The notes under the pieces were generated by a model, which was not told the origin of the DNA, did no database searches, and worked only from the letters and a program-made list of their open reading frames with translations. Shown piece by piece: positions 10,028-22,600 of a DNA stretch of 64,000 bases (its first letter is position 1; each line of letters opens with the position of its first letter). The position numbers and the translations under genes were made by a program. Source of the DNA: Desulfarculaceae bacterium. GTDB lineage: Bacteria; Desulfobacterota; Desulfarculia; Desulfarculales; Desulfarculaceae. The stretch is taken from positions 1-64,000 of the forward strand of contig JAHLKT010000004.1 of the NCBI GenBank assembly GCA_020444545.1, written 5' to 3'.

Positions 10028-10364
10028 CAACCTGGAACCCCTGCGCCGCATAACCTGCGCCGCGCTCTGCCGCTACTACAAGCCGGGCAAACGCGAGGAC
10101 CCGGGCTGCGGCGGCATGGAGTGGCTCTCGGCGCGCCCCGGCCTGGCCGCCCGCTTGGGCGAGCTGCCGCCCGCCGAGGGCGACGGCCTCTTCGGCCTGC
10201 CCGAAGACGAACCGCGCTTGATCGCGGTGTGCCAGACCTGTGAGTTCCGCGTCGATGGGTGCGACTTCCGCGACCCCGAGGTGGCGCGCTCCGAGTGCTC
10301 GCCCTGCGGCGGGCTGCGCGCCCTGGCCGGGCTGCTGGCCCTGGGCCTGGGGCTGGAGGAGTAG
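10011..10364 (+). CDS. Small cysteine-rich protein of unknown function
   Basis: 117 residues, no signal peptide or membrane segment. Cysteines fall in two groups: an N-terminal CAALC plus GCGG about 14 residues on, and a central CQTC, GCDF, ECSPCGG set. The spacing suggests an Fe-S or zinc site. It overlaps the DUF192 gene and ends 2 bases before the radical SAM start, so the three are almost certainly cotranslated. I do not recognise a family. Its position makes it a candidate partner of the radical SAM enzyme, for example in electron transfer or substrate binding; this is inference. Confidence 0.72.
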   Translation: MHPGDDNLEPLRRITCAALCRYYKPGKREDPGCGGMEWLSARPGLAARLGELPPAEGDGLFGLPEDEPRLIAVCQTCEFRVDGCDFRDPEVARSECSPCGGLRALAGLLALGLGLEE

Positions 10365-10366
10365 CC

Positions 10367-11533
10367 GTGTCCGACGGGCAGCAATACGTGCGCCTGGCGA
10401 ACCACGTGTGCCTGCGCCTGCTGGAGGAGCCCTATCTCTACGACCGCCGGGCCGACGAATTATATGAGCTGAACGAGGACGCCTTGGAGGGGCTCAAGCG
10501 CTGCCGGGGACATCTCACCCTGGAGCAGGCCAGCCTGGAACCGGAGTTCGCGACCTATTGCCTGGAGGAAGGCCTGCTGGAACTGGCGCCCGACCCCTGG
10601 CCCATGCCCCTGGCCCTGGGGCCCGCGCCCTCGCCTTCCCTGCGCTATCTGGAGCTGCAACTCACCTGGCGCTGCAACCTGGCCTGCGCCCACTGTTACC
10701 TGGGCCCGGCCGCCAAGATCGACCTGCCCGTGGAGCAGGTGGCCGCCATCCTTAGGGAGTTCGAGGCCATGGGGGGCTTAAGGGTGATGCTCTCGGGCGG
10801 CGAGCCTCTGATGCACCCCTGGTGGGACGAGATCAACGCCCTGTTGGCCGCACTGCCGGTGCGCCGGGTGCTCTTAAGCAACGGCCAATTGCTGGGCGTC
10901 AAGATTTTGGAGCGCCTCAACTGCGACGAGGTGCAGATCAGCCTGGACGGCCTGGAACCGGGCCACGAGCGCCTGCGGGGCAAGGGCAGCTTTGCCAAGG
11001 CCGTGGCCGCCGCCCGGGCGGTGAAGGCCTCGGGCCGCGACCTGTCCATCGCCACCATGGTGCACGCCAACAACCTGGATCAGTTCGAGGAGCTGGGCCG
11101 GCTGGTGCGCAGCCTGGGGGCCATCGAGTGGGGCATCGACGCGCCCAGCCTCACCGGCCGCTTGGCGAGCAACCCCGAGCTGGCCGTCAGCCCGGAGCAG
11201 GCCGTGGAGGCCATGAGCCATGCCTATGGCGGGGCCTACCACGGCGGGGGCGGGGGCATGGCCTGCGGCCTGCACCTGGCCACCGTGGCCGCGGACGGCA
11301 AGGTGGCCCAGTGCGGCTTTTACTTGGACGACCCCCTGGGCTGGGCCGAGGAAGGGCTGTGGACCTGCTGGTCCCGGCGGAGTCCCGTGGCCCTGAGCTC
11401 GCTAAAGGGATGCCGCGACTGCGAAGCGGCGGATGACTGCGGCGGCGGATGCCGCTTCCGGGCCGGGGACCCGTTGGGACCGGACCCGGTGATGTGCGCC
11501 GCCTACGGCATAACACCCAAGGAGACGACATGA
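10367..11533 (+). CDS. Radical SAM/SPASM protein with N-terminal PqqD-like domain
   Basis: 388 residues. Residues ~1-75 resemble a PqqD/RRE peptide-binding domain (VRLANHVCLRLLEEPYLYD, LYELNEDALEGLK). The radical SAM core carries the [4Fe-4S]-SAM motif CNLACAHC (CX3CX2C) in LTWRCNLACAHCYL, then SGGEPLMHP. The C-terminus has a SPASM-like cysteine array: CGLHL...CGFY, CRDC, DDCGGGCR and a late VMC. PqqD fusions of this kind usually modify ribosomal peptides. The start is GTG 10367, 2 bases after the previous stop; its stop overlaps the cupin ATG. The substrate is unknown, and the Cys-tailed peptide ~1 kb upstream is a candidate. Confidence 0.88.
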   Translation: MSDGQQYVRLANHVCLRLLEEPYLYDRRADELYELNEDALEGLKRCRGHLTLEQASLEPEFATYCLEEGLLELAPDPWPMPLALGPAPSPSLRYLELQLTWRCNLACAHCYLGPAAKIDLPVEQVAAILREFEAMGGLRVMLSGGEPLMHPWWDEINALLAALPVRRVLLSNGQLLGVKILERLNCDEVQISLDGLEPGHERLRGKGSFAKAVAAARAVKASGRDLSIATMVHANNLDQFEELGRLVRSLGAIEWGIDAPSLTGRLASNPELAVSPEQAVEAMSHAYGGAYHGGGGGMACGLHLATVAADGKVAQCGFYLDDPLGWAEEGLWTCWSRRSPVALSSLKGCRDCEAADDCGGGCRFRAGDPLGPDPVMCAAYGITPKETT

Positions 11534-12723: not shown

Positions 12724-13887
12724 CTAGTGCTTGCCGCAGCCGCACCCCGAGGACCCGCAGCCGCCCGGGGCCAGGGAATCCAGGCTCTGCACCGCCGGAG
12801 GCGCGGGCTCGGGCTTGGGGGCCAGCTTGGCCCGGGCCAGCTTGTACAGCGGCCGGATGCTCATGGCCATGAGCACCATTGCCCCGGCCCAACGCAGCCA
12901 CTCGGGCACCAGCTCCTTGGCTGAGCCCACCACGGCCACGGGGTTGACCTTCAGGAGAGCGTAGACCTGATCCACGGCCAGGCCGCAGAGCACCGCGCCC
13001 ACCGCGATGCCCGCCAGGTAGAGCGCCGTGCCGCGCTTGCCCAACACGCCCACCAGCACGGTGAGGCTGGTCACGTTGGTGGCCGGTCCGGCCAACAGGA
13101 AAACCAGGGCCGCGCCCGGGCTGACCCCCTTGAGGATCAGGGCGGCGGCGATGGGGGTGGAGGCGCTGGCGCAGATGTAGAGCGGGATGCCCACGCACAG
13201 CATGATCAGCATGGAGCCGATGCCTCCGCCCAGATAGCGGGTCATTAGCTCGGCAGGCACCAGCGCACCGATGAGCGCGGCCAGGAGCACGCCTAAAAGA
13301 AACCAGCCCGCCAGATCGTCCCACAACTCGCCCAGGGCGTAGACCAGGCCGGAGCGCAGCTTTTGCCAGCGGGAGTGGTGCTGCTTGTGCTCCTCGGGCG
13401 GGCAGTCCACCCCGTCGCAACAGGCGTCCACCGGGCAGGAGAGGTCCGGGGCCGTGGGCAGGGCCGCGCTCTTTTCGCGGGGCAAGAGGTTCATGCCCAG
13501 CCCGGTGGCTATGGCCGTAACCAGGGCGGCCAGGGGCCGGGCGATGGTCATGATGGGGTCCAACAGGGCGTAGGTCACCGCCAGGGAGTCCACCCCGGTT
13601 TCGGGGGTGGAGACCAGGAAGGAGGCCGTGGCTCCGCGCCCCGCGCCCTGTCGCCGAAGGGATGCTGCCGCCGGCAGCACACCGCAACTTCAGAGCGGCA
13701 GGGGCAGCCCCAGCAGGGCGGCCTTGAACACCGGGGCCACCCGGCCCCGCCCCAGGTTGCGGGCCACGAAATTGGGGTCCATGAAGGCCTTCAAAAGCCC
13801 GGCCACCACCAGGCCCAGGAGCATGTACAGCGAGGCCTCGAAGATGATGTGCCAGGCCTCGGTAAGGACGCTTACGACGAAGTGCAT
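12724..13887 (-). CDS. Metal efflux permease (SO_0444/ArsP-like), candidate selenoprotein
   Basis: A single leftward frame of 388 codons interrupted only by TGA at 13692-13690 (codon 66). Family members have a Cys-Ser-Cys-Gly-Val motif after a GxPLPL stretch. Here the reading is GLPLPL-[TGA]-SCGVLP, so the UGA sits on the first Cys of CSC. The rest is intact: RRQGAGRGATASFLVSTPETGVDS, about eight hydrophobic helices, an internal loop with CPVDACCDGVDCP and a GGCGSSGCGCGKH tail, likely metal-binding. A bSECIS-like hairpin follows the UGA. Decoding as selenocysteine gives 387 residues. The ArsR gene lies 19 bases upstream. Substrate (Cu, Zn, Hg, As) unknown. A nonsense mutation is the main alternative. 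Confidence 0.78.
13663..13679 (-). promoter_or_regulatory. Candidate bacterial SECIS hairpin in the permease gene
   Basis: On the minus strand TGCTGCC and GGCAGCA form a perfect 7-bp stem with loop GGC. The apical loop begins 17 bases after the UGA at 13692-13690. This agrees with the published bSECIS model: a short stem, a G among the first two loop bases, and a UGA-to-loop distance of about 16-37 bases. Confidence 0.72.
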
Positions 13888-13906
13888 GATGTGATCCTCG
13901 CGCCGC

Positions 13907-14281
13907 TTAGTGGTTCAGGTGGTCCAGGCTGCTGGCCAGCAGCTCAGCCACGTGGTGATCGTCCAGGGAATAGTAGAGGATCTGGCCGTCGCGCCGGTTC
14001 TTGACCAGGGCCAGGTCCTTGAGCCGCCTAAGGGCGTGGCTCACCGCCGAGTCGCTGATGCCGGTGAGGGCGGCCAGATCGCAGACGCACATCTCGCCGT
14101 CACGCAGGGCCAGGAGCATGCGCAGCCGGTTGGGGTCGCCCATGGCCTTGTACAGCGAGGCCAGGCGCTCCATCTGGGGCGGGGCGGGCTCGGCCGCGCG
14201 GGCGCGGCGCACCCGGTCCAAATGCACCACCTTTATCTCGCAGCCCTGTTGCTCGATCATCTTGCTCTTGCGCGCTACCAT
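13907..14281 (-). CDS. ArsR/SmtB-family metal-sensing repressor
   Basis: 124 residues with the winged-helix core ASLYKAMGDPNRLRMLLALRDGEMCVCDLA, recognition helix SDSAVSHALRRLKDLALV and a wing. The CVC pair in helix 3 is the classic ArsR-type thiol metal site. A second His/Asp-rich segment (SLDDHHVAELLASSLDHLNH) could form an alpha5 site like that of SmtB/CzrA. It is the first gene of the permease operon and lies next to a TTTGATCAAA palindrome in its promoter. It probably represses the operon until metal or metalloid binds. Confidence 0.92.
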   Translation of the reverse strand: MVARKSKMIEQQGCEIKVVHLDRVRRARAAEPAPPQMERLASLYKAMGDPNRLRMLLALRDGEMCVCDLAALTGISDSAVSHALRRLKDLALVKNRRDGQILYYSLDDHHVAELLASSLDHLNH

Positions 14282-19611: not shown

Positions 19612-22600
19612 TTGTCCGAGATAACTCGACGCCGTTTTCTCGGAGGCGCCGGCGTATTGGCCGGCGGCCTGGCCCTGTCATCCCTGGGGGTGCCCCTGGG
19701 CGCGCTGAAGGCCCACGCCGAAGAGCTGAGCAAGGCGGGGCGCATCGAGCGCGCCAAGACCACCATCTCCACCTGCTACTACTGTTCGGTGTCCTGCGGC
19801 CTGCTCTGCTCCACGGACCAGAAAACCGGCCGCATCATCAACATCGAGGGCGACCCGGACCACCCCATCAGCGAGGGAGCGCTCTGCGCCAAGGGCGCGG
19901 CCATGTTCCAGATGACCGACGCCAATGAGCACCGTTTGGACAAGGTGCTCTACCGCGCGCCCTACGGGGACAAGTGGCAGGTCAAGGACTGGGACTGGGC
20001 GGTGAACAAGATCGCGCGCAACATCAAGACGGTGCGCGACAAGGACTTCATGCACAAGAATGCCCGGGGCCAGGTGGTCAACCGCCTGGAAACCATCGGG
20101 CACATGGGCTCGTCCAAGGTGGACAACGAGGAATGCTGGTTGATAACTACCATGGCCCGCGCCCTGGGCCTGGTGCACATCGACCATCAAGCCCGGGTCT
20201 GACACAGCCCCACGGTAGCGGCTCTGGGAGAGTCGTTCGGACGAGGGGCCATGACCAACCATTGGATCGACCTGGCCAACAGCGACTGCATCCTGATCAT
20301 GGGCAGCAACGCGGCCGAGAACCACCCCATCAGCTTCCGCTGGGTGCTCCGGGCCCAAAAGAAAAACCGGGCCAAGATCATCCACGTTGACCCGCGCTTC
20401 ACCCGCACCTCGGCGCGGGCGGATTTTCACGCCGCCCTGCGCTCGGGCACGGACATCGCATTCCTGGGCGGCATGATCAACTACATCCTGGCGCACGACA
20501 AGTTTTTCCGCGACTACGTGGCCAACTACACCAACGGCGCGTTCTTGGTGGACCAGGGCTTCGGCTTCGAGGACGGCCTGTTCACCGGCTACGACCCCAA
20601 GGCCCGCAAGTACGACAAGGCCACCTGGGCCTTCCAGAAGGACGCCAAGGGCGTGATCCGCAAGGACCCCACCCTCCAGGACCCGCGTTGCGTGCTGCGC
20701 CTTATGCAAAAGCACTACGCCCGCTACAACCTGGACAAGGTCGCGGGCATCACCGGCACTCCGGTGGAGGACCTGAAGACGGTGTACGAGGCCTTTGCGG
20801 CCACGGGCCGGTCGGACAAGGCGGGCACCATCATGTACGCCCTGGGCTGGACCCAGCACACGGTGGGCACCCAGAACATCCGCACCATGGCCATCATCCA
20901 GCTTCTCTTGGGCAACATCGGGGTGTGCGGCGGCGGGGTCAACGCCTTGCGGGGCGAGCCCAACGTGCAGGGCTCCACGGACCACTGCATCCTGTACCAC
21001 ATCCTGCCTGGCTATCTGAAAGCGCCCACCACGGCCATGCCCGACCTGGCGGCCTACTTGAAAACCTGCACCCCGGTGAGCCAGGAACCCCAGTCGGCCA
21101 ACTGGTGGGGCAATTATCCCAAGTACATGGTGAGCCTGCTCAAGAGCTGGTATGGCGAGGCGGCCAGTAAGGACAACGACTTCTGTTACGGCCATGTGCC
21201 CAAGCTGGACGTGGGGCAGAACACCTCCATCATGAACACCTTTGACCTCATGTATGAAGGCAAGATGAAGGGCTACATCTGTCTGGCCCAAAACCCGGCT
21301 TGCAGCATGCCCCACGCGGGCAAGGTGCGCACCGCGTTGGGCAAGCTGGACTGGTTGGTGCACGCCAACATCTTTGACAACGAGACGCCTTCCTTCTGGC
21401 ACGCGCCGGGCATGGACCCGGCCAAGATAAAGACCGAGGTGTTCCTTTTGCCCGCCGCGGCTTCCATAGAAAAGTCGGGCTCCTTGACCAACAGCGGCCG
21501 CTGGGTGCAGTGGAAGTACGTGGCCGCCCAGCCGCCTGGCGACGCCATCGCGGTGGGGGACATGGTTTACCGCATCGTGGCCAAACTCAAGGAGCTTTAC
21601 GCCAAGGAAGGCGGCGCCGCGCCCGAGCCCATCCGCGATTTGTATTGGGACTACGGCGACGGCAAGGGCGGCTTCGATCCCCTGCGCACGGCCAAGGCCA
21701 TCAACGGCTACTTCCTGGAAGACGTGACCATCAAGGGCAAGGCCTATAAAAAGGGCCAGACCGTGCCCTCCTTCGGCCTGCTGAGCGACGAGGGCAAGAC
21801 CTCCTCGGGCAACTGGCTCTATAGCGGCATGTTCGACCAGCAGGGCCGCAACCTCTCGGCCCGGCGGGGCAAGCAGGACCCCACCGGCCTGGGGCTGTTC
21901 TCGCAATGGGCCTGGTGCTGGCCGGTGAACCGCCGAGTGCTCTACAACCGGGCCTCGGTGGACCCCCAGGGCAAGCCCTACAACCCGGCCCGGCCGGTGA
22001 TCGCCTGGAAGAACGGCAAGTGGGTGGGCGACGTGCCCGACGGGCCCTGGCCGCCTATGGCCGATGCCCAGGGCAAGCTGCCCTACATCATGAAGCCCCA
22101 CGGGGTGTCTTCCATCTTCGGGCCCGGCCTGGCCGAGGGGCCCTTCCCCGAGCACTACGAGCCGGTGGAAAGCCCCCTGGCCGTGAACCCCATGTCCAGC
22201 CAGCGCATCAACCCGGCGGTGAAGCTCTTCACGGGCGCGGCCGACCGCTACGCCTCGGCGGGCGGCGACTTCCCCATCGTGTGCACCACCTACACCGCCA
22301 CGGAGCACTGGTGCACCGGGGCCATAACCCGCTGGATGTCCTGGCTCACCGAGGCCATGCCCCAGGCCTACGTGGAGATGAGCCCCGAACTGGCCGAGGC
22401 CCGGGGCATCGCCAACGGCGACAAGGTCAAGGTGTGGAGCGAGCGGGGCGCGGTGGAGGCGGTGGCCTTGGTCACGGTGCGCCTACGGCCCTTCACGGTT
22501 GAGGGACGCGAGGTGCACCAGGTGGGCATGACCTTCAACTATGGCTGGCGCTACCCGGCCGACGCGGGCGATAGCGCCAACTTGCTCACCCCCACGGTGG

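Follow-up and report, generated by a model that had tools for sequence, protein, structure and literature searches.

A predicted selenocysteine codon in an SO_0444-family efflux transporter gene of a Desulfarculaceae bacterium, and Sec/Cys exchange among its relatives

The window, by which we mean the whole 64,000-nucleotide stretch of DNA that was analysed, carries a gene whose frame is interrupted by one TGA, which raises the question of whether the gene is broken at this point or whether the UGA is read as selenocysteine (Sec). A preliminary description had noticed two same-frame pieces split by the TGA at 13692-13690 only, and had proposed a new selenoprotein with Sec on a Cys position. 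Following the frame on the (-) strand from 13887 to 12724, we found it to be a single frame in which this TGA, lying between GLPLPL and SCGVLP, is the only in-frame stop; 321 sense codons follow it, then TAG, and the tail of the gene is GGCGSSGCGCGKH. The features of the locus are as follows.

12724..13887, (-) strand: SO_0444-family Cu/Zn efflux transporter gene, 387 codons including a single internal UGA predicted to be read as Sec; the read-through product scores 416.8 bits with NF033936 and 154.7 bits with Pfam ArsP_1 (PF03773)
13690..13692, (-) strand: the UGA, codon 66, in the motif PLPL-U-SCG; TGA or a Cys codon in 81/81 aligned sequences
13662..13680, (-) strand: putative bacterial SECIS hairpin; its stem is GUGCUGCC/GGCAGCAU and its loop, GGC, lies 17 nt past the UGA (from folding and codon constraint)
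13896..13899, (-) strand: GAGG, likely ribosome-binding site, 8 nt ahead of the ATG (from the sequence)
13402..13437, (-) strand: Cys-rich loop CPVDACCDGVDC, residues 151-162, then PPEEHKQHH; the region of a second Sec site in another class (from the alignment)
13171..13173, (-) strand: Cys239, invariant, within GIPLYICASAS, the second-half motif that corresponds to the Sec66 motif (from alignment and model)
12736..12759, (-) strand: C-terminal Cys-rich tail CGSSGCGC, poorly conserved (from the translation)
13907..14281, (-) strand: metalloregulator of the ArsR/SmtB type immediately upstream across a 19 nt gap, probably co-transcribed (SmtB 86 bits, CadC 56 bits)

The NF033936 match covers residues 12-345, spans the UGA and lies above the curated cut-off of 300, which places the product in the SO_0444 Cu/Zn efflux family; by analogy with the fitness data for SO_0444, Cu/Zn efflux would be its function. 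The window protein is also homologous over its whole length to the SaoE efflux transporter (NF040736), but at 172 bits it falls below the curated cut-off of 325, and identity with SaoE was rejected.

Sec/Cys exchange at codon 66

The 80 closest relatives, taken from 84,980 species genomes, were aligned to the window gene, and the codon facing the UGA was TGA in 32, TGT in 30 and TGC in 18, with no other codon found. Counting the window gene, the tally is TGA 33, TGT 30 and TGC 18 (n=81), that is, UGA at a conserved Cys position as in selenoproteins, and the Cys that the preliminary description had expected there was thus borne out. The nearest relative (L022, genome G008), which belongs to the same genus and has an 80% identical protein, has both the TGA and the hairpin in common with the window gene, and other genomes of the genus carry TGC at codon 66. 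In a phylum-wide sample of 394 genomes the family was present in 88, and the internal stops in family genes above the cut-off were always TGA, never TAA or TAG. A quick tree of 116 proteins, unrooted and with SH-aLRT support only, required at least eight Sec/Cys changes at site 66, its starred branches alone forcing at least four, and it placed the window gene and L022 within a supported group (99) alongside four Cys proteins of the same genus. Because of these changes, together with the differing hairpin registers described below, we read the distribution as repeated exchange of Sec and Cys, the direction of which is not readable since the tree is unrooted.

These results bear directly on the possibility that translation stops at the UGA in a broken gene, be it a pseudogene, an assembly error or a recent nonsense mutation. 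TGA is one point change from TGC or TGT, and of the 85 one-step nonsense changes possible in the gene exactly one falls at codon 66, so that such an accident is easily pictured; it would, however, have to account for a TGA that recurs in 32 of 80 relatives while the remainder have Cys codons only, for a change placed at least eight times on the tree, for internal stops that are never TAA or TAG in the 394-genome sample, and for hairpin codons that are frozen (see below). Moreover, the downstream frame, described earlier as intact, showed no other decay and is constrained as much as the upstream part, with pN/pS of 0.54 after and 0.63 before the UGA. For the group of relatives the comparison already refutes a broken gene, and we regard this explanation as highly improbable.

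The hairpin, codon choice and the Sec machinery

In the window hairpin, positions 13680-13673 pair with 13669-13662 around the loop GGC at 13672-13670, giving 8 bp of which seven are Watson-Crick and one is G-U. Alone it folds with -11.9 kcal/mol, and a 61-nt fold containing it has -31.7 kcal/mol with a z of -1.99, a value for a single sequence. Published bSECIS rules ask for a loop of 3-9 nt with G in the first two loop positions, a stem of 4-16 bp, a spacing of 16-37 nt and an energy <= -7.5 kcal/mol (as quoted in PMC13188914), all of which the window hairpin satisfies (loop GGC, 8 bp, 17 nt), in line with the GGC hairpin at the right distance in the preliminary description. Rule-conforming hairpins of <= -7.5 kcal/mol were present in 27/33 TGA genes versus 10/48 Cys genes, a contrast whose Mann-Whitney p of 2.8e-9 is indicative only, as related sequences are not independent.

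Covariation at this first site is weak because stems of the window type (type A) hardly vary. Fourteen Cys genes also had at least seven of the type-A pairs, with G at the first loop position in 3/14; because this pairing in Cys genes is driven by G+C, pairing alone was dropped as proof of a SECIS and the constraint on codons was taken instead. As the measure we used synonymous-codon identity, the share of identical codons where two sequences share the amino acid. Type-A Sec genes reached 0.84 over codons +4..+10 versus 0.35 in Cys genes, and type-B Sec genes, whose hairpin (CGCAGC-CGUGUC-GCUGCG) has its loop 23 nt from the UGA, reached 0.81 over +6..+12 versus 0.34; downstream of the hairpins, over codons +15..+44, the value was ~0.40-0.44 in all groups. 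We regard this codon choice as the strongest evidence for Sec over a broken gene, and it bears out, at the codon level, the hairpin proposed earlier. A possible third geometry following this UGA site, CCCGC-AGUU-GCGGG at 20 nt in family f55 (L147, L150, L152), was drawn by eye, and in L147 RNAfold preferred an alternative fold.

In L036 (L036:2696-2740) a paired change preserves the type-A stem but alters the protein from Ala to Thr (PAATSL), so that here the demands of the RNA stem appear to limit the protein sequence. Among Sec genes of Desulfobacterales (e.g. L042, L044, L070), nearly all those with the type-B hairpin have Val in 'AAVSL', a position at which Ala is found in many Cys forms; the G-U of the SECIS loop comes from the GUG codon of this Val.

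The source genome encodes SelA (610 bits), SelB (398 bits, C1:718227-720107), a tRNA-Sec (C8:13367-13460, 73 bits; called SeC with anticodon tca by ARAGORN) and SelD (L185, G000 C1:335187-336113), the last with an internal TGA and thus probably a Sec-SelD. This agrees with the earlier claim, made from fdhA, that the genome decodes Sec; fdhA itself, with its in-frame UGA at 20200(+) in QARV-U-HSPTV, is an ordinary selenoprotein gene of this genome. Elsewhere in the window, 10259-11533(+) encodes a Radical SAM/SPASM-like protein that is below the cut-off of every NCBIfam model among the matches listed. SelB was found in 26/26 tested genomes with a Sec form and in 34/38 Cys-form genomes, the other four being 70-84% complete; because of the latter count, the presence of SelB does not discriminate within the phylum, nor are the Cys forms explained by loss of the machinery.

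The same data allow two further readings of the UGA to be weighed. If it were decoded as Cys, Trp or another residue through suppression or an altered code, the frame would likewise be open on read-through; yet the tRNA-Sec with its UCA anticodon, SelA, SelB and SelD are all present, the SECIS constraint tracks the UGA allele, and UGA terminates other genes of the source genome, for example an ArsP-like paralogue on contig C11. We give such recoding very little credence. Termination at the UGA followed by an internal restart, with two polypeptides assembling, could use an in-frame GTG 9 nt past the UGA for a potential 318-aa product, but no Shine-Dalgarno sequence is evident ahead of that GTG, the break would fall within PLPLxSCG, a conserved motif that lies between paired helices, and a restart would explain neither the UGA/Cys exclusivity nor the G-bearing loops of the hairpins, which makes it just as improbable. 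Of the readings of the window UGA, Sec insertion is the best by a wide margin, and from the sequence we infer actual incorporation at residue 66. The TGA of the C11 paralogue had itself been a candidate and was rejected, as it proved to be a normal stop.

A probable second Sec site in the Cys-rich loop and what is known of the family

In another class of the phylum (that of genome G136) we found 15 genes in which the CSC motif has Cys and an in-frame TGA lies in the Cys-rich loop, 86-92 codons beyond the motif, as 'GCG-U-P' or 'GCG-U-G'.

L122, L123, L132, L133, L170, L172, L173, L182, L189-L195: loop-site Sec genes, in-frame TGA in 'GCG-TGA' plus hairpin

The hairpin follows the TGA in the same register in 15/15 genes, and among the 14 distinct sequences the G-U in its loop is invariant, 92.9% of cells pair and 5/7 pairs show two-sided changes. 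Its covariation score was 0.582 versus 0.315 for shuffles, none of 500 reaching the observed value, and slid partners gave at most 0.305; RNAalifold, unaided, found the same stem. Most Cys relatives of that class are likewise Cys-rich in this region, often with CGC, and since the loop aligns poorly, the residue-to-residue Sec/Cys match cannot be drawn as exactly as at site 66. In L136 (genome G085) an in-frame TGA stands at both sites (L136:1666-1960). Its second hairpin fits the bSECIS model but, with a z of -0.15, is no more stable than shuffled sequences, so the double form is less certain, and we consider L136 a possible double selenoprotein. We think it very likely that one family has recruited Sec repeatedly at two Cys positions along the presumed metal route. 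One is the CSC motif at a membrane helix break, as in the window, with several SECIS geometries; the other, in a different class of the phylum, is a CxU site ('GCG-U') in the loop, which has a covarying SECIS of its own. Both sites seem to be in use in at least one gene, L136.

The observation from which the analysis started was confirmed, and its interpretation was supported in part, failing on the word 'new', since a Sec form of SO_0444/NF033936 with UxC had already been catalogued (PMC13188914). That review, of May 2026, lists the SO_0444 family Cu/Zn efflux transporter under NF033936 as UxC with 1 Sec, WP_014809615.1, 'GenBank annotated', and says that the roles of such transporters need study (PMC13188914). 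WP_014809615.1 shares with the window gene the family, the UxC position and the single Sec, but it is another gene and record, and its entry is one table line; for this family the review offers neither a SECIS analysis nor a distribution, and neither a second site nor an experiment. In the literature searched NF033936 occurred only in PMC13188914, and none of the words permease, efflux and zinc appears in a 2022 review (PMC9312934). This makes the window gene a member of a catalogued Sec-form family and not a new selenoprotein family. The loop site 'GCG-U', the repeated exchange at site 66 with several SECIS geometries and the one gene with apparently both sites were not found in the literature searched, two family papers by Haft and colleagues aside, and appear to be new as far as that literature goes.

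With dozens of Sec and Cys forms, swapped even within one genus, the family would offer a clean test of what Sec contributes to soft-metal transport or loading, and automatic annotation is likely to cut many of these pumps short at the UGA. The selenoproteins characterised so far are mostly redox enzymes, and to our knowledge selenoprotein transporters are few and mostly without experimental tests.

Predicted fold, metal route and regulation

An AlphaFold model of the window protein, built from 34 sequences with a moderate pLDDT of 73.9, puts residue 66 between helices 51-60 and 67-79, in a gap whose second-half equivalent, between helices 223-233 and 240-252, holds Cys239. By VIA-align the model was closest to the arsenite exporter ArsB (PDB 10tp) of the IT elevator fold, with Z 12.5 over 287 residues, although a Z of about 12 in a helical protein may reflect a shared arrangement only; NaS1/INDY, TRAP, AbgT and CNT came next, and nearly all of the next 47 matches listed (Z 7.7-12.0) were elevator-type. 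These transporters, ArsB included, are elevator-type proteins that bind their substrate by paired broken helices. ArsB has 12% sequence identity with the window protein, ArsP_1/SO_0444 is a separate sequence family, and the substrate may differ. Foldseek gave no match to the model at E 0.001, and no solved structure related by sequence to the window protein was found. Sec66 lies at a helix break that looks like the substrate site, and the selenolate in the metal path suggested earlier would be consistent with an ArsB-like elevator fold; from the model we infer elevator motion and where Sec lies along the transport path.

Taken together, the explanation that we favour, at a probability of a little over nine in ten, is that of a full-length SO_0444-family selenoprotein. 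The GGC-loop hairpin 17 nt downstream would recruit SelB and its Sec-tRNA(Sec) for Sec insertion at codon 66, and the product would be an elevator-type, ArsB/IT-like exporter of the inner membrane in which the broken first-half helix holds Sec66 and Cys68 and the corresponding second-half break holds Cys239. Because of their placement in the model and the elevator-type structural matches, these three residues may make up, or border, an intramembrane soft-metal site, to which the Cys/His-rich loop 151-171 (Cys151/156/157/162 plus histidines) probably hands over the metal. The upstream ArsR/SmtB repressor, having both CadC-like and SmtB-like ligand residues, would probably derepress the operon under metal excess. 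What the sequence itself shows is the UGA/Cys exchange, the hairpin with its codon constraint, the Sec machinery, the family and the arrangement of the operon.

The founding member of the family by name, SO_0444 of Shewanella oneidensis, is needed under ZnSO4 and CuCl2 stress as judged from mutants (PMC3219624). It is linked to a ZntR-like regulator (SO_0443), whereas the window gene is linked to the ArsR/SmtB protein, whose closest match is SmtB, followed by CadC. This regulator keeps the D-x-H...H of the known alpha-5 zinc site and has MCVC at the alpha-3 position, both being ligand positions in the SmtB and CadC families. Among the relatives, ArsR lies just upstream in 25/42 Sec66 genes, 68/98 Cys genes and 8/15 loop-site genes, counts in which some flanks are too short to tell.
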